Under the pieces are notes generated by a model. That model had not been told where the DNA came from, ran no database searches, and saw only the letters and a list, made by a program, of their open reading frames with translations. Source: Phycisphaerae bacterium (GTDB lineage: Bacteria; Planctomycetota; Phycisphaerae; Sedimentisphaerales; Anaerohalosphaeraceae). From it: 51,853 nucleotides of DNA. The first letter of the stretch is position 1. Each line of letters starts with the position of its first letter. The stretch spans positions 1-51,853 of the forward strand of contig JAGPMT010000019.1 of NCBI GenBank assembly GCA_018052735.1, written 5' to 3'. The position numbers were made by a program, and so were the translations under genes. This document shows positions 32,538-50,162 of the stretch, piece after piece.

Positions 32538-32589
32538 TGGCAACATTCCTTTGCTTGCAGTAATAATAGTGTAAGTACTGTTTTATCTG

Positions 32590-34977
32590 CTACGGCAGTA
32601 AATAATTGATGCACTCCAGCCGGCCGGGCAGTGAACAGGTCCACCAATCAGCGATAAAGAGAGCCAAATCTTCGATGTCAACAGCACAATCATAATTCAG
32701 ATCCGCCGGCGCATAGCCCCACTGTCCGCAGGCACCGGAGGAAGCATGAATCGTTTCCAGTGCCAATCCGACATCGATAAACTGGCCGCCGATTGTCTGA
32801 CGGCAATGGACTGCAATGACATTATCGGCGTTCGGCACCAGCGCGGCCTTGGCCTCCGCAGCGGCAGGCAAGGGGATATAGCTGGTTGTATAACCCGTTG
32901 TTGCAAGAGCCAGTGCGCCGTTGATATAGACCTCGGCATCTTCATCATGATGAATCCGCCAGACCAGACGGTCCAAATCTGCCGGCGTCAACGGACCGGG
33001 ATTAAACATCCGGCGAAGCCAGATATCGGAAGTATTCCAGACAGTTCCAATAACCGCTCCCGGCGTGCCGGCTGTGCCGAAACCGCCGGGACCTTCGGTC
33101 CACGATGCATCATGAAACGACGGGGCAGACCAATTGGACGGCGGGGTGCTGGTCGTGTAGCGCCAGAGCTGCGGGGTTTGTTGGGATGTCGGCAGCACAT
33201 CCTGATAGGTCCGGGCATACATTAAATTCGACAGCCGAATCTGGCCGGCATCGGCTTTAACAACCGCACGGTCATAAGTAATCAATCCGTTAATCTCAAT
33301 CTCGACGTCTGTAATCTGGGTATAGACTGCGGCACTGAGACCCTGATTTTGCTTAAAGGAAATCAACTGCTGGGAATAGGAATCGTACACTGACGCCAGC
33401 TCTTCGGCAGAGTTTACCATTGTATAACCCCACGAATTCGGATTCCACATATGGCCGGAAATCCGCATTCCGATGCCGCCGTATTCGCCGCATACTCTGG
33501 CCTGTGTCGAGCTGACAGGATAAGACGGCGGGGGATAATTGTGGATATCCAGAACATCCCCGGCCCCGTAATGGCTGCCGCCGCTGGCCTGATTGACAAG
33601 CCGGCTGGGATCCATCGCCTTGACCATTGCACACAGCGGCGCTGTGTCGTGCTGGCCCTGACTTTCATTGAAAATCACCCACATAATCACCGCCGGGCTG
33701 TTCCAGTGCTGGCGAACCATCTGCGTTAATTCGGTCTTAAATTGCGCTTTATCAATCGGCTGAGGATTGCTGGTATAGGAATTGACACTGGGCATATCCT
33801 GCCAGACCAGAAGGCCCAGCTTGTCAGCCCAGTAATACCAGCGTGCCGGTTCAACTTTGATGTGCTTGCGGGTCATATTGAATCCAAGCGCTTTGGTCTG
33901 CTCCAAGTCCCATCGGAGCGCTGCATCGGTGGGAGCGGTATAAATCCCATCCGGCCAAAAACCCTGATCCAGCGGACCCATCTGAAACACAAACGTATCG
34001 TTGAGCAGCATTTTCACAACGCCGTCCACAGTCCCCAAGGCAATCTTGCGCATGCCAAAATAACTGTCAACTTGGTCAATCACCGTCGAACCCTGCTTCA
34101 AAACAACCTTTAAATCATACAGAAAAGGAGTTTCCGGCGACCACAGTTTGGGATTATGCATCACCAGCTGCAGCTGGTCCCCCACAGCACCGCTGACAGT
34201 TCCGGCCGGAACGCCATTATCATATGCCGTTGCCTGAATTGTCAGATTGGCAGCGGGTTGGGAAACCCATCCTGTGATGTTGAGTAATCTATGGTCAACA
34301 TCCGGAATCAGCTTCAGTTCCGTAAGCGAAATCTGCGGCACCGGCTCCAGCCAGACCGTCTGCCAGATGCCGGTCGTAGGAGTATACATAATACCGCCGG
34401 GAGAAAGCGTCTGCTTGCCCCGCGGGTAGCCGCCGTTGTCCGTTGGGTCGTACACGCGTACAATCAACTCCTGCTGGCCAGCCGGCAGCAGAAAAGGCGT
34501 GATGTCAAAGGAAAAGGCATCGTAGCCGCCTTTGTGTATGCCTACACTGCTGCCGTTTATATAAACCTCGGTTTCCCAGTCCACCGCTCCAAAATGGAGC
34601 AGAATGCGCTGGCCGTTCCAGCGAGACGGGATTTCAAACAGCCGCCGGTACCACAGCCGGTCATAATGCTGCATGATGCCGGAAATTGCCGACTCGACCG
34701 GAAAAGGAACGAGTATATCTTGGGAAAGGACTTGACCGACCGGAACCGTATCGCCAGCAGTGCCCGGCTGGAACTGCCAGATGCCGTTCAGATTCATCCA
34801 CTCCGGACGCACCAGCTGCGGCCGTGGATATTCCGGCAGCGGCTCAGCGGGATTTACCTGATATGCCCATTGCGTCATAACCGGCGCCTGCTGAAGCGTC
34901 CAAGCAAAAAGCGGACCGGCAAAACCCAACGCCAAAACAATTAGTAAAACTCCCCTCCCTTGATTCATTTTATTCAT
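32590..34977 (-). CDS. Secreted GH2 glycosidase with shared accessory domain and dockerin-like tail
   Basis: 795 residues with a signal peptide. It is a close paralogue of the GH2 protein at 27526-29730: LNGIWQFQPG, WYRRLFEIP, HFGAVDWETEVYINGSSVG, acid/base Glu438 in IFNESQGQHDT and nucleophile Glu498 in CGEYGGIG. The shared C-terminal accessory domain follows (NTSDIWLRR, IHHDEDAEVYING, HCRQTIGGQFIDVGL). It then has an extra dockerin-like end (APADLNYDCAVDIEDLALF, IADWW) that its paralogue lacks. Start ATG 34977 has AAAGGA eight bases upstream; the in-frame extension to 35079 is unlikely. It lies 47 bases after the LamG gene stop. Confidence 0.87.
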   Translation of the reverse strand: MNKMNQGRGVLLIVLALGFAGPLFAWTLQQAPVMTQWAYQVNPAEPLPEYPRPQLVRPEWMNLNGIWQFQPGTAGDTVPVGQVLSQDILVPFPVESAISGIMQHYDRLWYRRLFEIPSRWNGQRILLHFGAVDWETEVYINGSSVGIHKGGYDAFSFDITPFLLPAGQQELIVRVYDPTDNGGYPRGKQTLSPGGIMYTPTTGIWQTVWLEPVPQISLTELKLIPDVDHRLLNITGWVSQPAANLTIQATAYDNGVPAGTVSGAVGDQLQLVMHNPKLWSPETPFLYDLKVVLKQGSTVIDQVDSYFGMRKIALGTVDGVVKMLLNDTFVFQMGPLDQGFWPDGIYTAPTDAALRWDLEQTKALGFNMTRKHIKVEPARWYYWADKLGLLVWQDMPSVNSYTSNPQPIDKAQFKTELTQMVRQHWNSPAVIMWVIFNESQGQHDTAPLCAMVKAMDPSRLVNQASGGSHYGAGDVLDIHNYPPPSYPVSSTQARVCGEYGGIGMRISGHMWNPNSWGYTMVNSAEELASVYDSYSQQLISFKQNQGLSAAVYTQITDVEIEINGLITYDRAVVKADAGQIRLSNLMYARTYQDVLPTSQQTPQLWRYTTSTPPSNWSAPSFHDASWTEGPGGFGTAGTPGAVIGTVWNTSDIWLRRMFNPGPLTPADLDRLVWRIHHDEDAEVYINGALALATTGYTTSYIPLPAAAEAKAALVPNADNVIAVHCRQTIGGQFIDVGLALETIHASSGACGQWGYAPADLNYDCAVDIEDLALFIADWWTCSLPGRLECINYLLP

Positions 34978-34999
34978 CGCTGGAATCCTTTGACTACAC

Positions 35000-35016
35000 A
35001 TAACAGCCGCTGTTAT
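35000..35016. repeat. Perfect inverted repeat between array genes
   Basis: ATAACAGC and GCTGTTAT flank a single C, in the 47-base gap between the LamG gene (stop at 35025) and the GH2 gene (start at 34977). No T run follows on the minus strand, so it is not a standard terminator; it might be a processing or regulator site. Confidence 0.3.
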
Positions 35017-35024
35017 TGATAATT

Positions 35025-36419
35025 TTATGGATAAAAGTTGGTACATCCTATCCGCTCGGGATCGGAGCAATCCATCCAATATCGGGCAAATGTAACAAAA
35101 TCATAGAGATTTACGATGCAATCCCGGTTGTAATCACCGGGGGCATAGCCCCAAGCGCCGCATTCGTTATCCGCCACTGTGATCCTAACCGGCTCTACCT
35201 CCAAGCCGTCGTACAACGGATCCTGTGAACTTGAAACAACAACCGACAGCAGCACCGGATGCTCGGCATTTTCTACATCGGCATCGTCCACCGCTGTGAT
35301 GCGAACGGCCTGCGGGATATTCCAGTCGGCCGGCGTAAATGTCAACATTGTTTTATCGAGGATAATCTGCCCGCGGCCGTACAACTCCGAAATTTCAAGC
35401 ACTACTGTGCCGGCGGGCGGATATTCCAGCGAAAAGAACAGATCCCCCTGCCCGGCATCCTGTTCGCTGAGAGTCAGATTTTGGGGCGATATAACAAGGC
35501 CTTGCGGAACATGCTCATAAAACAGAAATTCCGATGGCTGCAGAGCCCTGTTGCAGATTCGTACTTCATCAATAAATCCATAGGCACGGTCTGTATGCGC
35601 ACGGTTATAAAGGCCGCGTCCGACAGACCAATTGCCCGCATCCCAGTCGCTGCCGTCGCCGGCTCCGGCAGTCAAGACCGTGCTGGGGCTTCCGGAAAGG
35701 GTCATATCTGTACGCGCAATTAACTGATAGCCGGTATCCCGGCCATGTTCCAGCAGGTAAAGCGACAGAGTGGAACCGTCACTGACGGCTGCCATGCTGT
35801 ACCATGGAACGCCTTCACCGCTGGGATTGGTGCTGTAGTCAAAGCTCTGAAATATTCCTTCCGCCGAGACCGCCTGATGCCAGAAGCCCGATACATCACA
35901 GAATTTAATTGCCAAAGCGTTGTTGGGCAGGGCCTGAAAATAGAGGGCGGCTAAATTGGCATTAACGGAGGCAGTGCCGTAACTGTCGCGTCCGACAATC
36001 GTGCGATAGTCCCCGTTTTCCAGCTTAAACGACGCTTCAATCGTAAATGCCGACGGGGACATTGTGCTTATGCCGGAACCCGTTTGAGTCCACATACCGG
36101 GATAGGCGCCGGTGTTTTTGACACTCAGGGTATTCGACTGGCCTGTTGTCGGAATTGCTGGTTTAGGTACATCCGATGTCCAGGCATATCCTGCATATCC
36201 GCCCGTTGACCACACAGACAGGTGATTGCCGTTTCCGGAATAATCCAGAATATCCGGACTCCAGACTCCGACAGACGCGCCGTGCGGCACCCCATCACCG
36301 GGAGGTCCTTCTTCAAACCTCCAGTACGCCACAACAGCCCCCCAAGCGGCACACTCGGACGTCGGCCAAATAACACTGATAAGAAATAATAAAGACAGCA
36401 AAACACTTCTGTTTTTCAT
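35025..36419 (-). CDS. LamG-domain secreted protein with dockerin-like tail (paralogue 1)
   Basis: 464 residues with a signal peptide (LLSLLFLISVIWPTSECAAW). A LamG/concanavalin-like domain spans about 30-290 (VAYWRFEEGPPGDG to AYGFIDEVRICNRAL), then a beta-sandwich repeat (LTFTPADWNIPQAVRITAVDD, Calx-beta-like), then a dockerin-like end (APGDYNRDCIVNLYDFVTFA, RYWMDC). No catalytic motif is visible, so a glycan-binding or surface role is the best guess. It is one of three tandem paralogues. Start ATG 36419 has GAGGA four bases upstream; a GTG at 36440 is less likely. Confidence 0.78.
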   Translation of the reverse strand: MKNRSVLLSLLFLISVIWPTSECAAWGAVVAYWRFEEGPPGDGVPHGASVGVWSPDILDYSGNGNHLSVWSTGGYAGYAWTSDVPKPAIPTTGQSNTLSVKNTGAYPGMWTQTGSGISTMSPSAFTIEASFKLENGDYRTIVGRDSYGTASVNANLAALYFQALPNNALAIKFCDVSGFWHQAVSAEGIFQSFDYSTNPSGEGVPWYSMAAVSDGSTLSLYLLEHGRDTGYQLIARTDMTLSGSPSTVLTAGAGDGSDWDAGNWSVGRGLYNRAHTDRAYGFIDEVRICNRALQPSEFLFYEHVPQGLVISPQNLTLSEQDAGQGDLFFSLEYPPAGTVVLEISELYGRGQIILDKTMLTFTPADWNIPQAVRITAVDDADVENAEHPVLLSVVVSSSQDPLYDGLEVEPVRITVADNECGAWGYAPGDYNRDCIVNLYDFVTFARYWMDCSDPERIGCTNFYP

Positions 36420-36496
36420 TTCTTCCTCATAACCAGGCACGCGTTTGCGCTTTTCTGCTGAAAATCCACCCCATGCCTGCCGGATGCTAAAAGAAA

Positions 36497-36612: not shown

Positions 36613-39231
36613 CTACTGATTGCACCCATTGAGGCGATCGCAATCGAGCCACTGTGCAGCAAAGACCACAAAGTCCGAGAAATCAACAAAACAGTCGGCG
36701 TTGAAATCCATCGGATTGGGGGCATCCTGAATGCACGGATTGGGCACGGTTGTATAATCATCCGGTCCCTGCTCATAGTACGCTTTAATCCAGTGCTTGG
36801 TCAGCGGGATGTTGTAAATACGGAACTCGTTAATCTTGCCCGTAAACATAGCATCCGGCCACTGCGAACGGCCCAGCCAGTTATTCACATCATTGATGTT
36901 CGCCAGATCATGGGTCAAATTCGTATTCTGACCGACCTGAACACCATTAACATAAAGGGTCATCACACGATTGACGCCGTCGAAGACGCAGGCGATGCAG
37001 GCCTCGTTGCCGCCGGCAATTGCGGAGTTGTCTGCCGGATCAATAATGACGCCGTTGTCCGGCGGACGAACCAGTGATTCATACCGCCAGCCGGGGCCGG
37101 AGCCTCTCTTGGGACAGAGCATAATGTATTCCTGCGTATCTTCGGCCGCCGTATCCAGATACGGCACGCCGTTGAGCCACTGAACACCGTCGCCGCCGGT
37201 GGAGAATCCTTCGCCGCCGGTTGACGTACCGAAATCAAACAGCCGCGGCCAGTCGCCGGTATCGGCACTCTTGTAGGTAAACCATATCATAAAGGTCGCG
37301 GTCTTGCCCAGCGCTGAAATCATGCCGTTGGGCAGGTCCACATAAGCCCCCTGCTGCGGCAGAAGTTCCTGCAGGTTCGGATAGAGCGGATCGGTTGACG
37401 GACGGGTGGGTCTGCTGTTGAGTCCCGGATTGCTAAGGATTAATTGGCCGTCTGCAAACGAATGATTCGGCTCATTGACATCCGCAATTGTTCCATGCGC
37501 CCCACCGATAGAATCGGAAGCATCGCCGGCAAATCCGTAGCGATGGACCAGATAATTGGTCGCAGCATAGGTGTCGTCACGGACAAACAGTTCTGCCGCC
37601 GGCGAATTGGCTTCACAGCCGGTCGGTCCGCCCAGCGGATCCGCCAGACGTACACGGGCATAATACCGGCCGTTGTCAGCCGGATCTGCCGCAACAATCC
37701 GCAGCGTTGTCTGCGTAGCGGTCGGCAAATCAGGATTATAAGTAATTTCGGTTACGCCCGGAACATTCGAAATCTGGATATCAGCCGGGTCCAGCGGATC
37801 GGGTGAAGTCAGATCGTCCTGTGCGCCGTTGACTTTGTACCAAGCAATCGCCGAATTATTGATTGTACCGCGGTTAATTGTTACGGTAAAAACGGCATCC
37901 GTCGGGGCATAGCTGTGGTCAATCGGGTCCGGCAGAATTGCCACATTGCCGCTGATGGTCAATCCCGGACAAGCCCTCGGGCCGAAGAACCGAACAGGCC
38001 ATCCTTCATACACAATAGGAATGTTATATACCGGATTGTTCGGATCCGGCAGATAATTGGGCTCCAGTAGCGTCAGGTCAAGACGCCAGTAATAATCTTG
38101 GCCATAGGCATACGTGCCGGCATAACCTTCATAGGTTGTGTCTTGCTCATCAGTAACCGTCCCTTTATGCAGATAGGCCGCGGGCACAGACGTGGCCAGA
38201 TCAGCGGGATTGTCAGCAATATAGATGGTGTAGGAGCCGAATGTCTTTCCTTCCGGAATATTGTTCTGCCACGAATACGCTATGGCACCGGTTGACATCA
38301 GATATTCGTCCTGAGCAGGATATACCGGTTTAACAAAAGGTTCTGACAGCAGGAATTCTTCAGGTCTCAAAGCCCTGTCAGAAATCCGCACTTCGTCGAT
38401 ATACCCATAGAAACGGTCTGTGTGAACACCGTTGTACATGCCGCGTCCGACCGTAATATTGCCTGCTTGCCAGTCGCTGCCGCCGCCGGCTCCGCCATCC
38501 AGAGCCGTGTCAGTACTGCCCGGGTTAACGACGGTCATATCCGTTTCCGCAATCAATTCATACCCTTTCTCAGGCGTAGCATGACTGAAGCGGTACAATC
38601 GCAGATACCGGCCATCGCTGGTTGCCGCAATTGTGTACCACGGAGCAGTGTTGCCGTCCGGATCGCTTCCATAATTAAAGCCGATATAGGCATTGCCGAG
38701 TTCGGCTGAATGCCAGTATCCAGCTCTGTCAATAAACTTAATGGCAAGGCCCATCGGGGGATTGTCGGTCGTCTGTAGATACAAACCCGCCAACGCCGGA
38801 TTGAGTTCCGTACCCTGCGTCAGTGCTCCCTGCGAATCGCGGCCGACAAGCGTTTTCCAGCCGCCTGCTTCCGCCTTGAAGGTCACTTCGATAGTCCACT
38901 GAGCCGGCTCCCAGTTCTGCAGCGTCGTTGTCCACATAGTAGGAGTACCCGTGATGTTCTTGACGCTGAAATTGTTGGGGGCACCAGTCCAAGGGACAGT
39001 ATCATAAGGAACATTCGCGCGATACTGCCATTGGCTGCTGCTCCAGACTGCCAAATGATTGCCGTTACCGGATACATCGGGAATGTCTGGGCTGTAAACA
39101 CCGGCGGCTGCATTGTGGGTGACATTCGTGTACGCGGGGCCTTGCTCAAACCGCCAGTAGGCCACCGTCGCCGCCATTGCGGAGGAACCTATAACACTCA
39201 AGAGTGTTAGAAAAAACATCATTTTTTTCAT
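36613..39231 (-). CDS. Large LamG-domain secreted protein with dockerin-like tail (paralogue 2)
   Basis: 872 residues with a signal peptide (FFLTLLSVIGSSAMAATVA). The N-terminal LamG domain (about 20-290, YWRFEQGPAYTNVTHN to YGYIDEVRISDRAL) is paralogous to those of the genes on both sides. The middle holds FN3/Ig-like segments (YPAQDEYLMSTGAIAYSW; ATQTTLRIVAADPADNGRYY). A second LamG-like domain follows (HRYGFAGDASDSIGGAHG to TGKINEFRIYN), then a dockerin-like end (PMDFNADCFVDFSDFVVFA, AQWLDC). No enzyme motif was recognised. ATG 39231 is preceded by AGGAG seven bases upstream; an in-frame extension to 39285 is not supported. Likely a surface or secreted glycan-binding protein; function unknown. 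Confidence 0.78.
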   Translation of the reverse strand: MKKMMFFLTLLSVIGSSAMAATVAYWRFEQGPAYTNVTHNAAAGVYSPDIPDVSGNGNHLAVWSSSQWQYRANVPYDTVPWTGAPNNFSVKNITGTPTMWTTTLQNWEPAQWTIEVTFKAEAGGWKTLVGRDSQGALTQGTELNPALAGLYLQTTDNPPMGLAIKFIDRAGYWHSAELGNAYIGFNYGSDPDGNTAPWYTIAATSDGRYLRLYRFSHATPEKGYELIAETDMTVVNPGSTDTALDGGAGGGSDWQAGNITVGRGMYNGVHTDRFYGYIDEVRISDRALRPEEFLLSEPFVKPVYPAQDEYLMSTGAIAYSWQNNIPEGKTFGSYTIYIADNPADLATSVPAAYLHKGTVTDEQDTTYEGYAGTYAYGQDYYWRLDLTLLEPNYLPDPNNPVYNIPIVYEGWPVRFFGPRACPGLTISGNVAILPDPIDHSYAPTDAVFTVTINRGTINNSAIAWYKVNGAQDDLTSPDPLDPADIQISNVPGVTEITYNPDLPTATQTTLRIVAADPADNGRYYARVRLADPLGGPTGCEANSPAAELFVRDDTYAATNYLVHRYGFAGDASDSIGGAHGTIADVNEPNHSFADGQLILSNPGLNSRPTRPSTDPLYPNLQELLPQQGAYVDLPNGMISALGKTATFMIWFTYKSADTGDWPRLFDFGTSTGGEGFSTGGDGVQWLNGVPYLDTAAEDTQEYIMLCPKRGSGPGWRYESLVRPPDNGVIIDPADNSAIAGGNEACIACVFDGVNRVMTLYVNGVQVGQNTNLTHDLANINDVNNWLGRSQWPDAMFTGKINEFRIYNIPLTKHWIKAYYEQGPDDYTTVPNPCIQDAPNPMDFNADCFVDFSDFVVFAAQWLDCDRLNGCNQ

Positions 39232-39270
39232 AGTCTGTCTCCTGAAAAACCAATGTGTAGCAGGGAGCAT

Positions 39271-39296
39271 CGGAGTAGGACACATATCCTACTCCG
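39271..39296. repeat. Perfect 10-bp hairpin between LamG genes
   Basis: CGGAGTAGGA and TCCTACTCCG flank CACATA. It lies in the 85-base gap between LamG paralogues 3 and 2. On the minus strand no T run follows, while on the plus strand TTTTT comes nine bases later. An mRNA stabilising or processing hairpin is possible. Confidence 0.45.
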
Positions 39297-39316: not shown

Positions 39317-40261
39317 TTACTGCTTTCTGCGAATCGCAAGAAGCGACCCCATACCCAGCAGCAGCAGCGTTGCCGGTTCCGGCACAACCATCAGGAACTG
39401 GTCCACGCTCAACGCAGCATCGGAAATGCGGACTTCATCAATAAATCCGTAGGCACGGTCGCCGTGCCCGCCGGCATACAGGCCCCGTCCTACCGACCAC
39501 GTGCCGGCCACCCAATCCCCACCGCTGCCAAGGCCTTTTGTCAGCGCCGTGTTCGAGCTGCCCGACTGCGTCATATCCGTCTGGGCTATCAGCTGCCAAG
39601 CCTGACCTTCGGTCACATTGCGAAGATACAGCGACAGGGTTGAACCGTCACTGACGGCCGCCATGCTGTACCATGGCGTATTCAGACCATCCGGATTGGT
39701 CGACCAGTCAAAACCAATGTAAGAATTGGCCGGTGCAATCGCCTCGTGCCAGTAGCCCGAGACATCGCAGAACTTAATGGCCAGACCATTGTTCGGAACC
39801 GCCTGAAAATACAGGGCCGCCAAATCAGAATTAATCGTCGCCGTACCCCGGGAATCACGCCCGACGATGGTCTTGTAGCCGCCGTTTTCCAGCTTGAAGG
39901 TGGCCTCAATCGTAAAAGCCGCGGGCTCAATGAACTGAATGCCGGCGTCCGGCTCGGTGAACATCGCCGGATAGCCGCCGGTGTTCTTGACGCTGAAATT
40001 GTTGGCCTGTCCACTGATAACCGGTCCGGCTACATCCGTCTTGTAGGCATAGCCAGCCCAGCCCTCGGCCCAGACCGACAAGGCATACCCGTTGCCCGAG
40101 CTGTCTGCTACACCCGGATAGAATACGCCGTTTGCTACCGGATGCGGCACATTCGCATTGGCCGGACCTTCCTCAAACCGCCAGTAAGCCACTGTTGCTG
40201 CATGCGCTGTCATTGCACTCACCACCGCTGCCACTGCCAACATCACAACATACTTCTTCAT
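39317..40261 (-). CDS. LamG-domain protein with PEP-CTERM sorting tail (paralogue 3)
   Basis: 314 residues. Signal peptide (MKKYVVMLAVAAVVSAMTA), one LamG domain (VAYWRFEEGPANANVPHP to AYGFIDEVRISDAALS) and a C-terminal PEP-CTERM signal: VPEPATLLLLGMG, a short hydrophobic run and RRKQ. PEP-CTERM proteins are processed by exosortase and sent to the surface; no exosortase gene is in the window. The LamG domain is closer to paralogue 1 than to paralogue 2 by eye (SDGSTLSLYL, GYKTIVGRDSRGTA). GGAGGTAAGG precedes the ATG. A TGTGATATAAT box lies upstream at 40475-40485. Confidence 0.85.
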   Translation of the reverse strand: MKKYVVMLAVAAVVSAMTAHAATVAYWRFEEGPANANVPHPVANGVFYPGVADSSGNGYALSVWAEGWAGYAYKTDVAGPVISGQANNFSVKNTGGYPAMFTEPDAGIQFIEPAAFTIEATFKLENGGYKTIVGRDSRGTATINSDLAALYFQAVPNNGLAIKFCDVSGYWHEAIAPANSYIGFDWSTNPDGLNTPWYSMAAVSDGSTLSLYLRNVTEGQAWQLIAQTDMTQSGSSNTALTKGLGSGGDWVAGTWSVGRGLYAGGHGDRAYGFIDEVRISDAALSVDQFLMVVPEPATLLLLGMGSLLAIRRKQ

Positions 40262-40515: not shown

Positions 40516-42216
40516 TTAATGAACTTGTCCAGTCGTAAGAACCAATTCCGGATTGGCAAACAGTGCCCAGTCCGAATCTGTGGCCCGTCTTGCCGGTTCC
40601 GGATAATCTATATCTCCGCCATCGGTTGTAATTAATGTCAAAAAGCGGTCCGTTTTCTTGATGTCAATCTCGATGGGATAAGATTTCCCTTTTTCGGTAA
40701 TATTTTTCTGACAATACCGCACATTACCGTCAACCAGCACCCAGACATCCACATTTCCCTTACGCGTTGCACTGGGAGACAGGCCCGCTTCAGCGATAAA
40801 ACGGGTAATTTCAGCACCATTAAAATCAGAACGAATTGCATCCAGATTATATGTAATCCCTAAATTTGCATGCATGAAGATGCTTGGGCAGGTATTGGAG
40901 CCGTATATGCCGCTGCCGGGTGCTGCTTCTTTCCACAGCATCGGGACAGCAGGGTCGGTTAGTTTGCTGTTTATAATCTCCATATAGAAAATATTATTGG
41001 TCACTGGGCACTCGGTAAAAATATGCCCTTTGGAACTTACTACTACAGGGGAAAATTGTCCGTTGGGGACAAAAACACCGTCGATATAACGGTTTTGGGG
41101 AACGGTTATATATTTCCCTTCACCCATACGATCCTCGGCAACAATATCGCCGATTTCACCGGTTAGAGGATGTATGCCGACACCCAGTCGGCCGGTTCCA
41201 AGCCCATTTCCCCCGCCTGTAATATCTGCCAAACTGATTGACGGCTGACCTCGCCAAATTAGATTGGTCTGGGAATTAATCTGACGAACAAAGATGAAAT
41301 TATTGCAGGGAATATCTGTAATATCAGACGAAATACCCGAGATTTTGCGTGCTGAACCCTCAAAAATTTCAAACTTAACCTTGTTTTTGTTTTCTCCGGC
41401 TATTAATTGGGTTTTGCCTTGGCTGACATGGAGTTCGGTTGTACCCTGAAAATCCACCTGAACACCGAATTGGGTACCTAAGTCGATAACCATCGCATTG
41501 GGCGTAGTTACAGAAAAGCCCAGTGCTTCCTGCGGGACAATAGAATAAAGCCGGCCGTACTGGAGTTTGATCCGGTCTTCGGAAATAATCTCGAATTCGG
41601 CTGGGCCTTCAATGGTTACAACAGCATTGTTGTCAAATACCAGTTTTGCCAGACCGCCCCGCAATAAGGATTTTGCCTGTCCGGTAACAAGCCGTGTTCC
41701 GGGCTTCATAGAAGCATCATCAGCCCATTTGGCATTGATGCTGTCAGCCAATGTAGCCACTTCAAAACCTCGGCTCGCTTTGGGGACAAAATAGGCATAC
41801 ACAACAAGAAATAGAATTGCAGCCAAGGAGGCAATCAGACTAAACATGGAAAGTTTGCTGCTTCCGGCTGTCACCTTGGGGACGGCGGCAGGTTTTTCCC
41901 ACTGCCTGACTGGCTTTTGCGGACAAGCAGGGAGATGTACTTCCGGTGCGTTCTTTTCATCATCGGCCAAAGCCAGCCATAAATCCATATCCATTGAATT
42001 GTCAAGCAAATCCATCTGCCCGAAGGATTCTGCGGAAGTCTCCTCATACAGCTTAACGGCCGTATAGTTTTTGATAAACTCCCAATAGATCGGAATGGCT
42101 TGCTCCTGCTGAAACCACGCTTTCAGCTCAGCAAGCCCGGCATCGTTGATGTCCCCTTCCACCAGACGCAGAAGCAGATGGTAAATCTTGACTGGATTTG
42201 TCTTGCCGTCATTCAT
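40516..42216 (-). CDS. FecR-type transmembrane anti-sigma factor with carbohydrate-binding-like C-terminus
   Basis: 566 residues in three parts. A cytoplasmic N-terminus (1-120; YHLLLRLVEGDINDAGLAEL typical of planctomycete anti-sigma proteins) is followed by one membrane helix (about 123-143). The FecR domain comes next (about 150-290; PGTRLVTG, AKLVFDNNAVVTIEGPAEFEI, MVIDLGTQFGVQVD, ELHVSQGKTQLI). The C-terminal part from about residue 430 resembles an NPCBM-type carbohydrate-binding domain (HANLGITYNLDAIRSDFNGA, VDVWVLVDGNVRY, LTLITTDGGDIDY, DWALFANPELVL). ATG 42216 overlaps the end of the sigma gene by 8 bases, implying translational coupling; a TTG at 42243 is the alternative. Expected role: it holds the partner sigma factor until an external signal, possibly a glycan, is bound. 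Confidence 0.82.
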   Translation of the reverse strand: MNDGKTNPVKIYHLLLRLVEGDINDAGLAELKAWFQQEQAIPIYWEFIKNYTAVKLYEETSAESFGQMDLLDNSMDMDLWLALADDEKNAPEVHLPACPQKPVRQWEKPAAVPKVTAGSSKLSMFSLIASLAAILFLVVYAYFVPKASRGFEVATLADSINAKWADDASMKPGTRLVTGQAKSLLRGGLAKLVFDNNAVVTIEGPAEFEIISEDRIKLQYGRLYSIVPQEALGFSVTTPNAMVIDLGTQFGVQVDFQGTTELHVSQGKTQLIAGENKNKVKFEIFEGSARKISGISSDITDIPCNNFIFVRQINSQTNLIWRGQPSISLADITGGGNGLGTGRLGVGIHPLTGEIGDIVAEDRMGEGKYITVPQNRYIDGVFVPNGQFSPVVVSSKGHIFTECPVTNNIFYMEIINSKLTDPAVPMLWKEAAPGSGIYGSNTCPSIFMHANLGITYNLDAIRSDFNGAEITRFIAEAGLSPSATRKGNVDVWVLVDGNVRYCQKNITEKGKSYPIEIDIKKTDRFLTLITTDGGDIDYPEPARRATDSDWALFANPELVLTTGQVH

Positions 42217-42739
42217 ACTGCTGGAGTACCATTGTTCGTTCAATACATGCTTTAAGCATATACATTATTCGGGAGATAGTTTTATACAGCGAGTCCGTTG
42301 AACGTCCTGTCAGCTGGGAGAGCATTTTGACTGTAATATTTTTATGAAATCGGAATGCTATCAGCTTTCGATCAGATACTTTCAGCCGCTCCAGACATAT
42401 TTTTAATGCGGCTATGCGGAACTGAATATCATCTGACGCTTTTTCCGTTACATCTGATATATTCTGGTATATATCCTCCGTAAATACCATTTTTGCCTTT
42501 TTGTTTTCCCGCAGGTATTGCATAACCTTATTCTTGGCAATTCCTATAGCCCAAGCGGCAAAGGAGCATTCCTCCCGATATTGGCTGAATTTTTCCCATA
42601 AAACAACACTGGTTTCCTGATACAATTCATCGGCATCACTCTTATTGTGGACAACGGACAAAATGAATGCATACAGTTTAGTTTGTATGCTGGCATACAT
42701 CCGCAGGAAACGTGCATGTTGAGAGGAATTTGTCATCAT
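42209..42739 (-). CDS. ECF-type RNA polymerase sigma factor
   Basis: 176 residues. Region 2 is clear (KLYAFILSVVHNKSDADELY, then QETSVVLWEKFSQY and FAAWAIGIAKNKVMQYLREN) and region 4 has a helix-turn-helix (LERLKVSDRKLIAFRFHKN, LSQLTGRSTDSLYKTISRIM). It belongs to the planctomycete/Verrucomicrobia-type ECF group that pairs with FecR proteins, and its gene overlaps that of the FecR anti-sigma factor. It heads the minus-strand array of LamG and glycosidase genes, so it likely controls some of them or the divergent mannan operon. The start is ATG 42739 or 42736; neither has a strong ribosome site. It is intact, unlike the related remnant at 19822-19980. Confidence 0.88.
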   Translation of the reverse strand: MMTNSSQHARFLRMYASIQTKLYAFILSVVHNKSDADELYQETSVVLWEKFSQYREECSFAAWAIGIAKNKVMQYLRENKKAKMVFTEDIYQNISDVTEKASDDIQFRIAALKICLERLKVSDRKLIAFRFHKNITVKMLSQLTGRSTDSLYKTISRIMYMLKACIERTMVLQQYE

Positions 42740-43362: not shown

Positions 43363-44481
43363 ATGATGGCATCACAGCTGCTTATTCGATTCCTTCTGGT
43401 TTGGCTTATTGCGGAATCGATTTTTATCAACAGCGCCCGGGCATCGAATGAAGTACGCGATTTTATGAAATGGGGTTCTGAAACGCTTGCCTGCATTGAG
43501 CGGGACCATCGGATTGCCGGTCAGGCAGGCTATTACGAAGACCAGAGCCGGACCAATCCGGCATATGCATGGGGAACGGCCATTCTGTTACTGGCCTATG
43601 CCAAGGCCGCCCAAGTCGAACAACTCCATGCACAATCTTTAACCGAACTGATTGACTATTTAAGCAGATACTGGGTGGAAGATAAGGGCATTGGCGGATA
43701 TGACTGCCTGCCGGCTCCCCGAAACAAGGTCGAGCGATATTACGACGACAATGCCTGGATCGCAATGGGACTGATGGATGCTTGGACTGCCACCGGTAAA
43801 CCGGAGTATCTAAAACAGGCCGAAAAAACACTGTCTTTTTGCTTAAGCGGAATAGATCCCAACGACGGCGGCATTTGGTGGAAGGAGACATGGGACAGCG
43901 AACGCCGCAAAACCAAAAACACCTGCTCGGCTGCACCAACGGCTTATGCGTGTCTGCGTTATTATGAGGCAACCCGCCAGCAGCAGTATCTTGAAACCGC
44001 CAAAGAGCTTTTAAAATGGCTGGATGCGCATTTAAAAGACAGTGATTCCCTGTATTTTGACAGCATCCGCCCCTCAACAGGACGAATTGGACGGCGGAAA
44101 TGGTCGTATAATTCAGCTATGCCGCTTCGCTGTTATGTCCTGCTGTATAAGCTGACCGGCGATTGTTTGGAACAGGCCGAACAAATAGCCAAGGCCTGCC
44201 AGAAAGAATGGTTTGATGAGACCAGCGGCGCTGTTCGATGCGAGTCGATGTTTGCCTTTACACTTATCGAGGGCTGGCTTGAGCTGTCTGAAGCAGCAGG
44301 CCAGAAACACTGGAAAAACCTTGCCGAACGCGGTATGCTGTATGTTCGGCAGAATGTGCGGGATCCCAACGGCCGATACTCCAAGCGATGGGATGCTACC
44401 AATACAGAAGCACTGACTCAATGGAAACTGCTGTATCCGGCAGCAGCAGCCCGAGCTTATTGGGCTTTGGCTGCGAAATAA
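43363..44481 (+). CDS. GH76 endo-alpha-1,6-mannanase
   Basis: 372 residues, essentially a signal peptide plus one GH76 domain. The Asp-Asp catalytic pair is at 128-129 in ERYYDDNAWIAMGLMD; FCLSGIDPNDGGIWWKE and SAAPTAYACLRYYEAT match the same blocks in the larger GH76 protein at 20252-23119. GH76 enzymes cleave the alpha-1,6-mannose backbone of yeast mannan and related glycans. AAAGGGAG lies before the ATG pair at 43363/43366. It is the first gene of a six-gene plus-strand operon and is divergent from the ECF sigma gene. Confidence 0.9.
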   Translation: MMASQLLIRFLLVWLIAESIFINSARASNEVRDFMKWGSETLACIERDHRIAGQAGYYEDQSRTNPAYAWGTAILLLAYAKAAQVEQLHAQSLTELIDYLSRYWVEDKGIGGYDCLPAPRNKVERYYDDNAWIAMGLMDAWTATGKPEYLKQAEKTLSFCLSGIDPNDGGIWWKETWDSERRKTKNTCSAAPTAYACLRYYEATRQQQYLETAKELLKWLDAHLKDSDSLYFDSIRPSTGRIGRRKWSYNSAMPLRCYVLLYKLTGDCLEQAEQIAKACQKEWFDETSGAVRCESMFAFTLIEGWLELSEAAGQKHWKNLAERGMLYVRQNVRDPNGRYSKRWDATNTEALTQWKLLYPAAAARAYWALAAK

Positions 44482-44516: not shown

Positions 44517-45383
44517 ATGAACTCCAAAAAAGCATTTACGCTGATCGAGCTGCTGGTAGTCATTGCCATCATTGCTCTGCTGCTTTCGGTCATTATTCCG
44601 GCACTCAAAAAAGTCAAAAAACAGGCCGCTGCTGTCGTATGCCTGTCGAATATGAGAAGCATGGCAACATCGTGGCATTCCTATGCAATGGACCATGACA
44701 GCAAACTGGTCAACGGCCATGTGCCCCGCCGGATTTTTGCGTCTCCTTGTTTTTGGGTCGAAGCCCCGCAGGACCGCAACGGGGTTTATACCGGCGAAAA
44801 AGCCCTCAGCAATACAGTTCTGCCGGTTCAAGAAGAACAAAACGGCATACGAAAAGGGCTTTTATTCCCCTACCTTGAAGCGGTGGATGCCTATCACTGC
44901 CCTGCTGACAAAAGTGCATTGCTGTTTTCCGACAGGTCTACCGCCGGCTATGGCTCTTGGTGGAACAGCTATTCTATTACCGGCATGATGAATGGGGAAG
45001 CATCAAAAGAGACATACCTGCTCTACAATCCTTCTGCTACAAGCGGATGGGACAACCACTCTGTATTCAAACTGTCGGAAATATCAAGTCCCTCAAGCCG
45101 CATCGTTTTTTTGGAAAATGCGGATTGGCGCGGCTGGCTGATGGGATCGTGGCTGATGAATTATACGACACCTTACTGGACCGATCCCTTTGCCATCTGG
45201 CACGGGACAACAAGCCCTTTCAGCCCGCTGGGATTTGCAGATGGACATGCCGAAAATCACCGGTGGGTTAACAAATCGACATGGGATATGGCTCAAAAAC
45301 ATCTTTTCAATGTCACCCCGCCGGCCAATGAACGGGAAGATATTGAATTTATGCGGCTTGCGTATCTGCCCCGGGGGAAATAA
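44517..45383 (+). CDS. Prepilin-type (type II pseudopilin-like) protein with H-X9-DG end
   Basis: 288 residues. The N-terminus is a prepilin signal: KKAFTLIELLVVIAIIALLL, with the conserved glutamate five residues into the mature protein. A globular domain follows, ending in an H-X9-DG-type motif (WHGTTSPFSPLGFADGHAENHRWV), typical of the expanded pseudopilin families of Planctomycetes and Lentisphaerae. These are processed by prepilin peptidase; their role with sugar-degrading enzymes is not known, but secretion or surface display is plausible. AGGAG lies eight bases before the ATG. It lies 35 bases after the GH76 stop and before GH92, so it belongs to the mannan operon. Confidence 0.87.
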   Translation: MNSKKAFTLIELLVVIAIIALLLSVIIPALKKVKKQAAAVVCLSNMRSMATSWHSYAMDHDSKLVNGHVPRRIFASPCFWVEAPQDRNGVYTGEKALSNTVLPVQEEQNGIRKGLLFPYLEAVDAYHCPADKSALLFSDRSTAGYGSWWNSYSITGMMNGEASKETYLLYNPSATSGWDNHSVFKLSEISSPSSRIVFLENADWRGWLMGSWLMNYTTPYWTDPFAIWHGTTSPFSPLGFADGHAENHRWVNKSTWDMAQKHLFNVTPPANEREDIEFMRLAYLPRGK

Positions 45384-45476
45384 TGCCTGGCGGCTGCAGA
45401 ATACAATACAATCCGAATCCGCAGACAAGCAAATGCAGTGTTGAATAATAACTATTGGACAATCAGGGAGGCCTTT

Positions 45477-47780
45477 ATGAAGTGCAGATGGAACGTTGCG
45501 ACCGCATGGATGCTCTTTATCTGCTGTCTGTCACCGCTGGGTTATGCCACACAGCCGTCTTCGTTTTCTTATGCAGATTATGTAAATCCGCTCGTGGGAA
45601 CGGATTCGACTTTTAACTTTTCAACGGGAAACACGTATCCTGCAGTGGCAGTTCCCCGCGGAATGAACTTCTGGACGCCGCAGACCAACAAAATGGGAGA
45701 CGGCTGGTGCTACCAGTACGGTGCCCGCAAAATCCGCGGCTTCAAACAGACCCATCAACCGAGTCCATGGATCAATGATTATGCGGCATTTTCTCTGATG
45801 CCGATTGTCGGTCAATTGACGGTCGATGAGGAGAAACGGGCATCGTGGTTTTCCCATAAGGCCGAAACAGCCAGACCTTATTATTACCGCGTGTATTTGG
45901 CGGATTACGATGTAACGGCGGAAATAACCCCGACAGAACGGGCTGCTCAGTTTCGATTCACCTTCCCGGAATCGGATTCTTCCTACATCCTGCTGGACGG
46001 TTTTGATAAAGGGTCGTATGTCAAGATACTGCCGGCCGAGCGGACCATCATCGGATATTGTCGAAATAACAACGGCGGGGTTCCGCAGAACTTTCATAAC
46101 TATTTTATTGTCGTCTTTGACAGAGATTTTGAGGAGGTCTATACATGGAATAACGGCAGGGTTCAAAGCGGGCAAACCGAAGAGCAGGGAAATCATGTCG
46201 GTGCGGCCGTGCGTTTCCGCACACACAAAGGCCAGCAGATCCAAATCAAAGCGGCTTCCTCTTTTATCAGTCCGCAGCAGGCCAAACTGAATCTGCAGCG
46301 GGAACTGGCCGATGATTCTTTTGACCAAACATGCCGTAAAGCAAAAGATATATGGAACAGCCATTTGGGGCGGTTCCGCGTCAGCGGAGGCACCGAAGCA
46401 CAATATCAGAATTTTTATACAGCCTTGTACCGGGCGCTGCTGTTTCCCCGGATGTTTTACGAATTGGATGCAGCGGGCAGAATTGTGCATTACAGTCCCT
46501 ACAACGGTCAGGTTCTGCCGGGGTATATGTTCACCGACAACGGGTTCTGGGATACCTTTCGTGCGGTTTTTCCATTCCTGACGCTGATGTATCCTGAACT
46601 CAATGCCCAGATTATGGAAGGTCTGGTTAATACCTATACAGAAAGCGGCTGGCTTCCGGAGTGGGCCAGTCCGGGACATCGGGACTGCATGATCGGCTCC
46701 AATTCAGCTGTCAATATCGCCGATGCGTATCTGAAGGGCATTCGGGGCTATGACATCGATACCCTGTACGAAGCAATTCTGAAGAATTCCGAAAATGCCG
46801 GTCCCCTCCGTTCCGTCGGACGGTTTGGTGTCGAATATTATAACACGCTGGGGTATGTCCCCTGCGATGTGAACGTCAATGAAAGCGTTGCCCGGACGCT
46901 GGAATACTGTTATGCGGATTTTACCATCTGGAAGCTGGCCAGAGCGCTGAATCGCCCGCAGGATGAGATTGACCGCTTTTTCCGCCGGGCACAGTACTAC
47001 AAAAATGTTTTTGATGCCTCGACCAATTTTATGCGCGGGCGAAGAAAAGACGGCTCCTGGTCCGAACCTTTTGTGCCGGAAAAATGGGGCGGAGATTTCA
47101 CCGAGGGATGTGCATGGCATTACACGTGGTCTGTTTTTCACGACCCGCAGGGGCTGATAGATTTAATGGGCGGGCGTGAAGCATTTGCAGCCAAACTGGA
47201 TGCTGTTTTTACAACTCCCCCCAAGTATGACTGTTCGTACTACGGTTTCCCCATTCATGAAATTATTGAGATGACGGTAATGGATATGGGCCAGTATGCT
47301 CACGGCAATCAGCCGATTCAGCATATGATTTACCTGTACAACTACGCCGGCCAGCCGTGGAAAGCGCAGAAATGGGTACGGGAAGTAATGAACAGACTCT
47401 ATACGCCTACTCCGGACGGCTTATGCGGGGATGAAGACAACGGCCAGACCTCAGCTTGGTATGTATTTTCGGCACTCGGCTTTTATCCGGTCTGTCCCGG
47501 TTCGGGCCAGTATGTGCTGGGAGCTCCGCTGTTCAAAAATGCGGTGCTTCACCTGCCGAATGGAAAAATCTTCGAAATTTCGGCTCCTAAGAATTCGGCA
47601 GAAAACCTCTATATCCAATCGGCTAAACTGAATGGACGAACGTATACAAAAACCTATCTGCAGCATCACGATATAATCAAGGGCGGCAAACTGCAGATTG
47701 CGATGGGAGACAAGCCCAATCCAAACTGGGGCAGCGGCCCGGATGATGTCCCGTACTCGATGTCCAGCGAAAAACATTGA
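45477..47780 (+). CDS. GH92 exo-alpha-mannosidase
   Basis: 767 residues with a signal peptide. Family blocks: YVNPLVGTDS, GNTYPAVAVPRGMNFWTPQT, GFWDTFRAVFPFL, PEWASPGHRDCMIGSNSAV and GQTSAWYVFSALGFYPVCPG. The catalytic acid is Glu543 (FTEGCAWHYTW) and the base pair of acids Asp652/Asp654 (GDEDNG); the spacing of 111 residues equals that between Glu533 and Asp644 in Bacteroides BT3990. GH92 enzymes are calcium-dependent inverting alpha-mannosidases that trim alpha-1,2, 1,3 or other mannose links. ATG 45477 has GGGAGG five bases upstream; the frame extends to 45438 without support. Confidence 0.94.
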   Translation: MKCRWNVATAWMLFICCLSPLGYATQPSSFSYADYVNPLVGTDSTFNFSTGNTYPAVAVPRGMNFWTPQTNKMGDGWCYQYGARKIRGFKQTHQPSPWINDYAAFSLMPIVGQLTVDEEKRASWFSHKAETARPYYYRVYLADYDVTAEITPTERAAQFRFTFPESDSSYILLDGFDKGSYVKILPAERTIIGYCRNNNGGVPQNFHNYFIVVFDRDFEEVYTWNNGRVQSGQTEEQGNHVGAAVRFRTHKGQQIQIKAASSFISPQQAKLNLQRELADDSFDQTCRKAKDIWNSHLGRFRVSGGTEAQYQNFYTALYRALLFPRMFYELDAAGRIVHYSPYNGQVLPGYMFTDNGFWDTFRAVFPFLTLMYPELNAQIMEGLVNTYTESGWLPEWASPGHRDCMIGSNSAVNIADAYLKGIRGYDIDTLYEAILKNSENAGPLRSVGRFGVEYYNTLGYVPCDVNVNESVARTLEYCYADFTIWKLARALNRPQDEIDRFFRRAQYYKNVFDASTNFMRGRRKDGSWSEPFVPEKWGGDFTEGCAWHYTWSVFHDPQGLIDLMGGREAFAAKLDAVFTTPPKYDCSYYGFPIHEIIEMTVMDMGQYAHGNQPIQHMIYLYNYAGQPWKAQKWVREVMNRLYTPTPDGLCGDEDNGQTSAWYVFSALGFYPVCPGSGQYVLGAPLFKNAVLHLPNGKIFEISAPKNSAENLYIQSAKLNGRTYTKTYLQHHDIIKGGKLQIAMGDKPNPNWGSGPDDVPYSMSSEKH

Positions 47781-47836: not shown

Positions 47837-49000
47837 ATGGGAATGAAAACACTGCCTATTCTGCTGGCCTTTTTTGTAATGGGAGTTGCCGATGCGATGG
47901 GGCCTATGTCAGATGCCGTTCGGCAAAACTATCAGCTGAGCAATGTGATGGCCACCCTGCTGTCCTTTTTTGTTTTTATTGCCTTTGCGGTATTCAGTGT
48001 GCCGGGGGGGCTGTTGGCAACTTACATCGGCAAGAAAAAACTGCTTCTTCTGGGGCTGGGATTGAATGCTGCGGCCATGCTGATTCCCTGTCTGATGCAG
48101 CCGGGATTTGCGCTGCTGCTGGTCTGCATTTTCGTGCTGGGCATCGGCACAACTTTTTTGCAGGTTGCCGGCAATCCCATTATGCGGGATGTCAGTCCGC
48201 AAGGCGCTTACGGCCGCAACCTCAGCTTTGCCCAAGGCTTTAAGGGAATCGGCAGTACCGTTTCATCCTATTTAGTTACAGCAATAGCAGGTTTTGCCCT
48301 TTTTGAAAGTATGGGCTGGCGGGGGGTATTTCCGATTTTCTTTATCCTTATGGCGGTTACATTTGTCTGGGTTGCCACGTTGAAAATCGAAGAGACCAAA
48401 GCCGATGTTCCGCCCAGCATTCTCACGAGTCTCCAGCTGCTGCAGAAGCCGGTATTTGCGATGGCCGTTTTGGGGATTTTTCTGTATGTCGGAGCGGAAG
48501 TCTGCATGGGGCGGTTTCTTCTGCCGCTGCTGGAAGCTATGGGATTGGAGAAATCCACCGCCTCAAAATTCGGACCGGCGTTCTTTTTTATGATGCTGAC
48601 GGTCGGCCGTTTAGCCGGCGGTGCCGTACTGACTTTGCTGACGCCAAGAACATTTTTCCGCTTGTCAGCAGCTCTGGGATTGCTGGGGGCCGGTCTGCTG
48701 ATGCTGGGCAATCCATCCTTTGCCATTCTCGGCGTACTGGCAGCTGGTTTGGGATTTGCAAATATCTGGCCGATGCTGTTTTCGATTACGGTTGAAGAAG
48801 AACCTCAGCGCAGCAGCGAATTGAGCGGGCTGATGTGCATGGCTATTTCCGGCGGGGCACTGGTTCCGCTGGCGATGAGCAAGCTGGTCGACAGCGGGCT
48901 GGCCGCAAAAGCATTCATCATACCGGTTATCTGCTTTTTCTATCTGCTGGCACTGTCGCTGAAAGGCCCCAGCAAGGTTAAACCAGCAGCAGCGCAGTGA
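47837..49000 (+). CDS. FucP/FHS-type major facilitator sugar permease
   Basis: 387 residues with about twelve hydrophobic helices. The GTTFLQVAGNPIMRDVSPQG loop and the overall pattern (FAVFSVPGGLLATYIGKKKLL near the start) match the fucose:H+ symporter (FHS) branch of the MFS, whose members import L-fucose, glucose, galactose or mannose. In this operon between GH92 and a ROK kinase, mannose is the likely cargo. AAAGGA precedes the ATG. No TonB-dependent or SusC-type importer is in the window, so this is the only visible sugar importer. Confidence 0.88.
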   Translation: MGMKTLPILLAFFVMGVADAMGPMSDAVRQNYQLSNVMATLLSFFVFIAFAVFSVPGGLLATYIGKKKLLLLGLGLNAAAMLIPCLMQPGFALLLVCIFVLGIGTTFLQVAGNPIMRDVSPQGAYGRNLSFAQGFKGIGSTVSSYLVTAIAGFALFESMGWRGVFPIFFILMAVTFVWVATLKIEETKADVPPSILTSLQLLQKPVFAMAVLGIFLYVGAEVCMGRFLLPLLEAMGLEKSTASKFGPAFFFMMLTVGRLAGGAVLTLLTPRTFFRLSAALGLLGAGLLMLGNPSFAILGVLAAGLGFANIWPMLFSITVEEEPQRSSELSGLMCMAISGGALVPLAMSKLVDSGLAAKAFIIPVICFFYLLALSLKGPSKVKPAAAQ

Positions 49001-49034: not shown

Positions 49035-50141
49035 ATGCAAGATCATCGTATTGTTCTGACGCTGGATGCCGGCGGAACCAACTTTGTTTTTTCGGCTATT
49101 CAGGATATGAAGGAAGCAGCAGCACCGGTCCGTCTGCCGGCTTATGCCGATAATTTGGAAAAAAGCTTGGCTTCTATCCGGGAGGGTTTTTCGCAAGTGA
49201 TATCCCAATTGCCGCAGAAGCCGGCAGCTATCAGTTTTGCCTTCCCAGGGCCGGCAGACTACCCGAACGGCATTATCGACAATATGGGCAATCTTCCGGC
49301 CTATCGCGGCGGCGTTGCCTTAGGGCCCTATCTGGAAGAAACATTTCAGATGCCGGTTTTTATCAATAACGACGGCGATTTGTTCGCTTACGGGGAAGCG
49401 ATAGCCGGCCTGCTGCCCAAAGTCAACCGCATGCTGGAACAGGCGGGTTCCCCAAAACGGTTCAGCAAGCTTTTCGGCATTACGCTGGGGACCGGCTTCG
49501 GGGGCGGGATTGTCGCCGACGGAAGACTGTTTATTGGGGACAACTCCGCAGCCGGCGAAATCTGGATTACCCGCAACAAGCGTCATCCCAAATGCTTTGC
49601 AGAAGAAGGCGTCAGCATCCGCGCTGTCCGCGGTTCGTACGCCCGGGTTACCGGCATCGCTGTTTCCGATGCACCAACGCCAAAGGATATCTACGAAATC
49701 GGCATCGGCCGCCAGCCGGGCAATAAAGATGCAGCCCGTCAGGCATTTGAGGAAATGGGCGAAGTCATCGGCGATGCTCTGGCCAATGCTATCACGCTGA
49801 TTGATGGCCTCATCGTTATCGGCGGCGGGCTGGCAGCAGCGTATCCGCTTTTTATTGATGCTGTTCTCAAAGAAATGAACGGGACTATTGAAAGCTACAG
49901 CGGCCAAAAACTGCCCCGCATTGTCCAACGATGCTTTGACTTGGAAAACCCGGAAGCCTGCCGGCTATTTTTGGAAGGCCGCATCAAAGAAATCCATGTG
50001 CCCGGCAGCAAAAGAATTATCAAGTACGATTCACTCAAGCGAATCGGGATTGGACGGGCGGTTTTGGATACCAGCCATGCGGTTTCTATTGGGGCATATG
50101 CCTATGCTCTTAATCAATTGGACAATCCGAAGAAGAAATAA
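49035..50141 (+). CDS. ROK-family sugar kinase
   Basis: 368 residues. The ATP-binding phosphate loop LDAGGTNF and the catalytic aspartate in INNDGDLFAYGE are present, followed by GITLGTGFGGGIV and the C-terminal IVIGGGLAAA. The usual zinc motif of ROK proteins (CxCGxxGCxE) is missing; the equivalent stretch EIWITRNKRHPKCFAEEGVS has one cysteine only. There is no DNA-binding domain, so it is an enzyme and not a repressor. By position it is probably a mannokinase or glucokinase, feeding mannose from the permease into glycolysis as mannose 6-phosphate. AAGGAAG precedes the ATG. Confidence 0.85.
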   Translation: MQDHRIVLTLDAGGTNFVFSAIQDMKEAAAPVRLPAYADNLEKSLASIREGFSQVISQLPQKPAAISFAFPGPADYPNGIIDNMGNLPAYRGGVALGPYLEETFQMPVFINNDGDLFAYGEAIAGLLPKVNRMLEQAGSPKRFSKLFGITLGTGFGGGIVADGRLFIGDNSAAGEIWITRNKRHPKCFAEEGVSIRAVRGSYARVTGIAVSDAPTPKDIYEIGIGRQPGNKDAARQAFEEMGEVIGDALANAITLIDGLIVIGGGLAAAYPLFIDAVLKEMNGTIESYSGQKLPRIVQRCFDLENPEACRLFLEGRIKEIHVPGSKRIIKYDSLKRIGIGRAVLDTSHAVSIGAYAYALNQLDNPKKK

Positions 50142-50162
50142 CTTTATTGTATGAGGTGCAGA

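Follow-up and report, generated by a model that had tools for sequence, protein, structure and literature searches.

The window analyzed here, a 51,853-nucleotide stretch of contig JAGPMT010000019.1 from a planctomycete of the order Sedimentisphaerales (genome in 70 contigs, 96% complete), contains a pair of overlapping minus-strand genes that encode an extracytoplasmic function (ECF) sigma factor and a FecR-type anti-sigma factor ending in a predicted carbohydrate-binding module. We propose, with a probability of about 0.7, that this pair switches transcription of the entire locus around it in response to glycans; the locus consists of an array of glycan-related genes behind the FecR gene and a divergent mannan operon. 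By analogy, the pair is best read as a periplasmic glycan sensor that would work similarly to RsgI of Clostridium thermocellum while being built on the FecR scaffold, with a putative ligand, release mechanism and promoter. We infer glycan sensing and control of both the array and the mannan operon, and favor this reading because the locus is co-directional behind the pair in other genera, because the sensor part of the FecR protein tracks the target gene whereas the sigma factor does not, and because the TonB-transducer route of classical FecR systems is absent.

An ECF sigma factor paired with a FecR-type protein carrying a CBM51 module

The two genes and the predicted parts of the FecR protein are as follows.

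42209..42739, minus strand: ECF sigma factor of the TIGR02989 (Rhodopirellula/Verrucomicrobium) family, 176 aa (TIGR02989 profile; Sigma70_r2, 1e-12)
40516..42216, minus strand: FecR-type anti-sigma factor with a CBM51 end, 566 aa from the ATG (Pfam FecR and NPCBM above cut-offs)
41950..42195, minus strand: four-helix cytoplasmic N-terminus, residues 8-89, presumed sigma-binding domain (helices 8-19, 25-35, 40-71 and 76-89 in the AlphaFold model)
41788..41853, minus strand: transmembrane helix, residues 122-143 (hydropathy 2.4; helix in the AlphaFold model)
41269..41763, minus strand: FecR periplasmic domain, residues 152-316 (structural match to 4m0n and PupR)
40531..41250, minus strand: extended CBM51/NPCBM sensor domain, residues 323-562 (insertion at about 340-445; structural match to CBM51)

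The sigma factor matches the TIGR02989 profile over its full length (positions 2-158 of 158; 128.4 bits, cut-off 124.55), and the FecR protein contains the Pfam domains FecR (PF04773; 26.4 bits, cut-off 24) and NPCBM (PF08305; 40.5 bits, gathering cut-off 23.9). With the ATG at 42216 as the start, the fecR gene overlaps the sigma gene by exactly 8 bp, as the initial annotation of the pair had it; the fecR open reading frame (40516-42243, minus strand) is open further upstream, where an alternative TTG start at 42243 would yield a protein of 575 aa. The layout of the FecR protein is of the anti-sigma type, with a helical N-terminus (cytoplasmic), a transmembrane (TM) helix and an adjoining ECF sigma gene; in profile comparison, the N-terminus is weakly similar to RsiW (E 0.47). 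The arrangement is not due to chance because 71 homologues align with the FecR protein from end to end and because the pair directly precedes the same downstream gene, encoding a LamG-type protein with a PEP-CTERM tail, in further genomes. The FecR domain is matched (at E 0.01) in 70 of these 71 homologues and the single strong TM helix is present in all of them; the set was collected with a CBM51-containing query, so that the frequency of CBM51 among FecR proteins is biased in it.

In the AlphaFold model of the FecR protein, built with 71 sequences (pLDDT 87.6), residues 177-321 align with 4m0n, an anti-sigma factor (Z 15.8), and with the PupR signaling domain 6ovk (Z 14.8), and residues 323-562 align with CBM51 (Z about 15; all by VIA-align). 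When the last 250 residues were modeled alone (pLDDT 90.3), the model matched eleven CBM51-bearing entries, including 2vmh, 2vmg, 7jrl and 2vng, with Z of 12.5-14.9, compared to at most 9.6 for all other folds. A CBM51 match was also obtained with Foldseek (probability 1.00), and the profile of the sensor domain matches a CBM51-bearing PDB protein by sequence as well (E 3e-8). By model and profile, the C-terminus of the FecR protein is a CBM51/NPCBM fold, for which carbohydrate binding is predicted. The AlphaFold check suggested together with the initial assignment of an NPCBM-like domain to residues 430-566 has thus returned the expected fold, albeit with a different extent: the domain spans residues 323-562, and 430-566 is its second part only, the first strand of the CBM51 fold being located some 100 residues earlier, ahead of a glycine-rich insertion. 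The sensor had been placed outside the membrane; considering that the host is a diderm planctomycete, the location is most likely the periplasm. This extended CBM51 domain also forms part of a PSCyt1/PSCyt2/PSD1 protein in a different planctomycete (L134:2718-5711).

The resemblance of the FecR domain to PupR and 4m0n brings up the possibility of classical FecR cell-surface signaling, in which FecR is contacted by a TonB-dependent receptor of the outer membrane, CBM51 being an accessory. The FecR/PupR systems share with the present one the FecR fold (Z 14.8-15.8), the TM helix, the cytoplasmic helical N-terminus and the adjacent ECF sigma gene; they differ from it in that here a CBM51 module is located at the C-terminus and no TonB transducer was found. 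The genome encodes a single TonB barrel protein, in which Plug and barrel but not STN are matched, versus 12 sigma/FecR pairs, no TonB gene or transducer was detected among the scanned window genes, and neither STN nor DUF4974 was matched in the 71 homologues. Classical TonB signaling was accordingly rejected as highly improbable.

The surrounding locus and its conservation

The eight minus-strand genes behind FecR extend down to position 23243, and the divergent block starts at 43363.

39317..40261, minus strand: LamG-type surface protein with a PEP-CTERM tail (LamG-PEP), first gene after FecR (PEP-CTERM 26.3 bits)
36613..39285, minus strand: LamG surface protein with a dockerin-like C-terminal tag (Pfam LamG 5.5e-20)
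35025..36440, minus strand: LamG-like protein with a dockerin-like C-terminal tag (weak LamG match, 5e-5; 49-58% to co-directional genes of relatives)
32590..35079, minus strand: glycoside hydrolase family 2 (GH2) glycosidase (Pfam GH2 domains; orthologues in the same locus elsewhere, 62-74%)
29898..32546, minus strand: GtaA-type protein (DUF4964/5127/GtaA hairpin; 4e-139; orthologues 68-72%)
27526..29742, minus strand: second GH2 glycosidase (orthologue in G303, 71%)
24944..27586, minus strand: GH127, beta-L-arabinofuranosidase family (3e-50; orthologues 65-67%)
23243..24919, minus strand: GxGYxYP putative glycosidase, last of the minus-strand run (comes after GH125 in G010)
43363..44481, plus strand: GH76, alpha-mannanase family, first of the divergent block (3.6e-33; between GH127 and GH92 in G225)
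44517..45383, plus strand: pilin-like protein with a prepilin N-terminus (N_methyl 1.8e-7)
45438..47780, plus strand: GH92, alpha-mannosidase family (5.8e-180)
47837..49000, plus strand: MFS transporter (domain scan)
49035..50141, plus strand: ROK family protein (domain scan)
50151..51593, plus strand: GH125, alpha-mannosidase family (5.7e-164)

The array behind the pair, initially described as eight minus-strand glycan genes, indeed contains eight genes, namely those for three LamG-type proteins (one with PEP-CTERM), two GH2 glycosidases, the GtaA-type protein, GH127 and GxGYxYP; the immediate neighbor of FecR is, however, a surface LamG/PEP-CTERM protein rather than a glycosidase. The divergent mannan block is likewise present, with the gene order GH76, pilin-like, GH92, MFS, ROK and GH125. 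No SusC/SusD pair was found among the scanned genes of the two blocks.

In three genomes of genus g2 (G010, G225 and G424) and in one genome of genus g13 (G303), the locus is co-directional behind a sigma/FecR pair, in the order sigma, FecR, LamG genes, GH2, GtaA, (GH2), GH127. The run continues in G010 via GH92, MFS, ROK and GH125 to GxGYxYP, in G225 via GH76 to GH92, and in G424 to GH76; the G303 locus was read as far as GH127. Since G010, G225 and G424 have genes of the second block within this run, the two divergent blocks of the window are most simply interpreted as one ancestral locus that was rearranged here, and judging by this gene order, the mannan genes would form a unit with the sensor. 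For the LamG-PEP gene, a FecR gene is located directly upstream in 11 of the 12 judged genomes, the window genome included (the exception is G487; G468 and G451 were left unjudged due to contig ends). Homologues of this gene with less than about 50% identity are mostly located away from FecR genes; given these and the G487 orthologue that lacks an upstream FecR, the link is not universal.

More generally, the first gene downstream of FecR is co-oriented with it in 74 of 75 cassettes. The 61 such genes that were scanned include 25 with LamG, 19 with a prepilin motif (N_methyl) and 14 with PEP-CTERM, compared to 5 with LamG and 3 with a prepilin motif among 99 control genes on the far side of the sigma gene (Fisher test, p 2e-8 for LamG and 8e-7 for the prepilin motif). 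Glycosidases occur among the second and later downstream genes.

The prevalence of LamG, PEP-CTERM and pilin-like proteins, not glycosidases, in the first downstream position would fit a pair that senses the cell's own surface (exopolysaccharide, pilin, PEP-CTERM proteins), with CBM51 binding the cell's own glycans and the glycosidases co-regulated secondarily, and host-type glycans are indeed among the ligands in CBM51 structures. Nevertheless, glycosidases do follow in these cassettes, the order of the GH genes in this locus is conserved across genera, and tens of divergent paralogues per genome suit many substrates better than a single envelope signal, so that we regard own-surface sensing as unlikely, if the most serious of the alternatives.

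The sensor end of FecR, not the sigma factor, tracks the target gene

The sigma factors that head the LamG-PEP gene are scattered in the sigma tree: at least four label changes are forced, and a single clade is rejected (p-AU, the approximately unbiased test, 1.1e-5; this and the other p-values of this section come from tests designed after the first loci had been seen and are not those of a preplanned test), which is still the case after dropping two rows (p 4.7e-4). The sigma factor of G474, a long branch, was excluded from this analysis. By contrast, the CBM51 domains of these eight loci make up 8 of the 9 rows of a supported clade (96/98), and in their case the test does not reject a single clade (p 0.12). 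In a comparison of 65 pairs, the identity of the sigma factors correlates with that of the FecR N-termini (partial r of 0.61, p 0.001), only weakly with that of CBM51 (0.20), and not with that of the FecR core. In 48 cassettes, CBM51 identity predicts how similar the downstream genes are (partial r of 0.13, p 0.002), whereas the sigma factor, the N-terminus and the FecR core do not. This pattern, which derives from sequence comparison, suggests that the sensor end stayed with the target genes while the switch (sigma) end was exchanged. In some FecR paralogues (on C40, on C68 and three in G015), LamG replaces CBM51 at the same place; hence different sensors can be fitted to a scaffold that itself does not vary.

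The tracking part adjoins the target gene, and no promoter motif is shared, both of which would be compatible with hitch-hiking, whereby recombination moves the 3' part of fecR jointly with the downstream genes, the pair being functionally unconnected to the locus. This scenario appears improbable, more so than own-surface sensing, considering that sigma factors of several separate clades head the same target gene, that co-orientation is found in 74/75 cassettes, and that the types of neighbors on the two sides are strongly asymmetric.

A tentative mechanism and comparison with known systems

Under the glycan-switch interpretation, the four-helix N-terminus of FecR would, at rest, retain the sigma factor at the inner membrane, as can be surmised from its fold and from its co-variation with the sigma factor. 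In the periplasm, it would be followed by the FecR signaling domain and then by the CBM51 module, at the place where a classical FecR would meet the TonB receptor. A fragment of the polysaccharide of the locus would enter the periplasm and bind the CBM51 module, and binding would change the FecR domain, probably accompanied by an intramembrane cleavage of the RseP type (the genome encodes an M50 protease of this type). The freed sigma factor would then transcribe the genes for the sigma/FecR pair itself along with those for the glycosidases and for the surface proteins of the LamG/PEP-CTERM and pilin-like kinds. Planctomycetes are thought to pull polysaccharides whole into the periplasm by means of pilin-like "fishing rods" (PMC12078418); such uptake would bring the polymer to where the sensor sits and would account for the pilin-like genes in the cassettes.

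Several observations weigh against the proposed switch. The genes nearest to the pair encode surface proteins, which is also compatible with envelope sensing, and several genomes of the same genus have zero or one pair. The CBM51-coding end adjoins the target gene, such that a single recombination tract including both would produce the same tracking with no selection for the ligand, and the partial correlation between CBM51 and the downstream gene is small (0.13). The CBM51 structures are, by title, galactose complexes, N-acetylglucosamine (GlcNAc) complexes or blood-group-active enzymes, rather than mannan or arabinan complexes, and galactose and GlcNAc do not obviously match alpha-mannan. 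Finally, the search for a shared ECF promoter, which was part of the original proposal, yielded no common motif: none was detected in alignments of the upstream regions of orthologues, and no promoter-like motif is common to the region upstream of sigma and the downstream gap, either in the orthologues or in 38 cassettes (same-locus test over the 38 cassettes: p 0.15 for shared bipartite words, 0.6-0.8 for 7-10-mers). In genus g2, a pilin-like gene is located just upstream of sigma (L044:16098-16952 in G010), so the promoter may lie further up.

The closest functional parallel is RsgI/SigI of Clostridium (Acetivibrio) thermocellum (PMC12203970, PMC4711584), where the anti-sigma factor is tipped with a carbohydrate-binding module and cut by RseP (PMC12203970). 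Both systems rely on membrane-bound anti-sigma factors whose carbohydrate-binding sensors at the C-terminus can be exchanged, and both have several paralogues in a genome, with a separate sigma factor for each; polysaccharide degradation is under their control, presumably so in the present case, and an RseP-type step is plausible here as well. Unlike RsgI/SigI, the partner here is an ECF sigma factor of the TIGR02989 family rather than SigI, a FecR domain forms the extracytoplasmic core instead of the autocleaving RsgI domain (the FecR fold occupies the place of the SEAL/PD domain), and the sensor is CBM51 or LamG and, in a diderm planctomycete, most likely periplasmic. The RsgI N-terminal domain was not found in the protein (FecR and NPCBM are the sole matches at E up to 1) or in any of the 71 homologues. 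The resemblance to RsgI/SigI drawn in the initial annotation therefore stands as an analogy and fails as membership, there being no RsgI domain match and no SigI-type partner.

The ECF/anti-sigma regulators of polysaccharide utilization loci in Bacteroides (reviewed in PMC10766802) similarly form a pair at the head of a glycan-utilization locus; in the window, however, surface LamG/PEP-CTERM and pilin-like proteins are found instead of a TonB/SusC protein, which was not detected in the two blocks. ECF52 and ECF53 of Actinobacteria (PMC10766802) also combine an ECF/anti-sigma system with a predicted carbohydrate-binding domain, but as a fused C-terminal anti-sigma extension, in contrast to the two genes and the FecR scaffold seen here.

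Distribution of the family and implications

The window genome encodes 12 sigma/FecR pairs, and nearly all of its NPCBM domains are in FecR proteins. Among the relatives, most of which are metagenome-assembled genomes (MAGs), the number of FecR matches is 57 in G005 (same genus), 32 in G010, 31 in G015 and 13 in G019. The best 80 matches in GTDB come from Planctomycetota MAGs, mostly Phycisphaerae/Sedimentisphaerales; across 392 genomes of the phylum, multiple full-length copies of the sensor per genome are found mainly within the order of the window genome, with usually a single copy elsewhere. One of the 80 best matches, a planctomycete-type sigma/FecR cassette (L061), is found in a MAG labeled Balneolaceae, probably a binning error. 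In G010, a second, distinct sigma/FecR pair is located near the orthologous pair, on the opposite strand (L044:13548-15739).

Planctomycetota CAZyme (carbohydrate-active enzyme) clusters have been described as not yet functionally characterized (PMC11131199), and we found no paper on their regulation. Nor did we find one on a FecR protein with NPCBM or on planctomycete FecR anti-sigma factors of this kind, in a partial coverage of the literature that an earlier mention may have escaped. If the glycan switch is real, anti-sigma factors that sense carbohydrates would have arisen on FecR independently of RsgI. Sensor domains that remain associated with their targets would also provide a handle, in that the substrate of a locus could be predicted, and reported on, by its CBM51 or LamG sensor, and the switch offers a regulatory test of the proposed whole-polysaccharide uptake into the planctomycete periplasm (PMC12078418). 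A broader generalization, which we put forward as a conjecture with somewhat less than even chances, is that Sedimentisphaerales run plug-in glycan switches: the sensor half (CBM51/LamG) would belong to the substrate locus and recombine independently of the sigma half, each switch would head a SusCD-free locus with LamG/PEP-CTERM and pilin-like "fishing rods", and the whole polysaccharide in the periplasm would be sensed directly.

Additional observations

Three array proteins carry at the C-terminus a single EF-hand-like tag with two cysteines (window positions 32590-32650, 35025-35100 and 36613-36680) and the dockerin-like pattern D-x-N-x-D-C-x-V-[DN]-x-x-D-...-W-...-C. Of 70 genes located behind FecR cassettes, 13 contain the strict pattern, versus 1 of 99 upstream genes. 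The dockerin-like tails brought up the idea of a cellulosome, but it was rejected as no cohesin was found in the genome.

A second GH76 protein (20252-23119, plus strand), encoded apart from the mannan operon, is fused to ricin-type and LamG domains and has a dockerin-like end. A decayed TIGR02989 sigma fragment (19755-19998, minus strand), consisting of region 2 only with an in-frame TGA, is flanked by this gene and by a class II ribonucleotide reductase gene. A contig edge elsewhere in the genome (G000:C56:2-349) carries the LamG-PEP C-terminus a second time, with 94% identity and with further LamG genes behind it, which makes it a recent partial duplicate of the locus.
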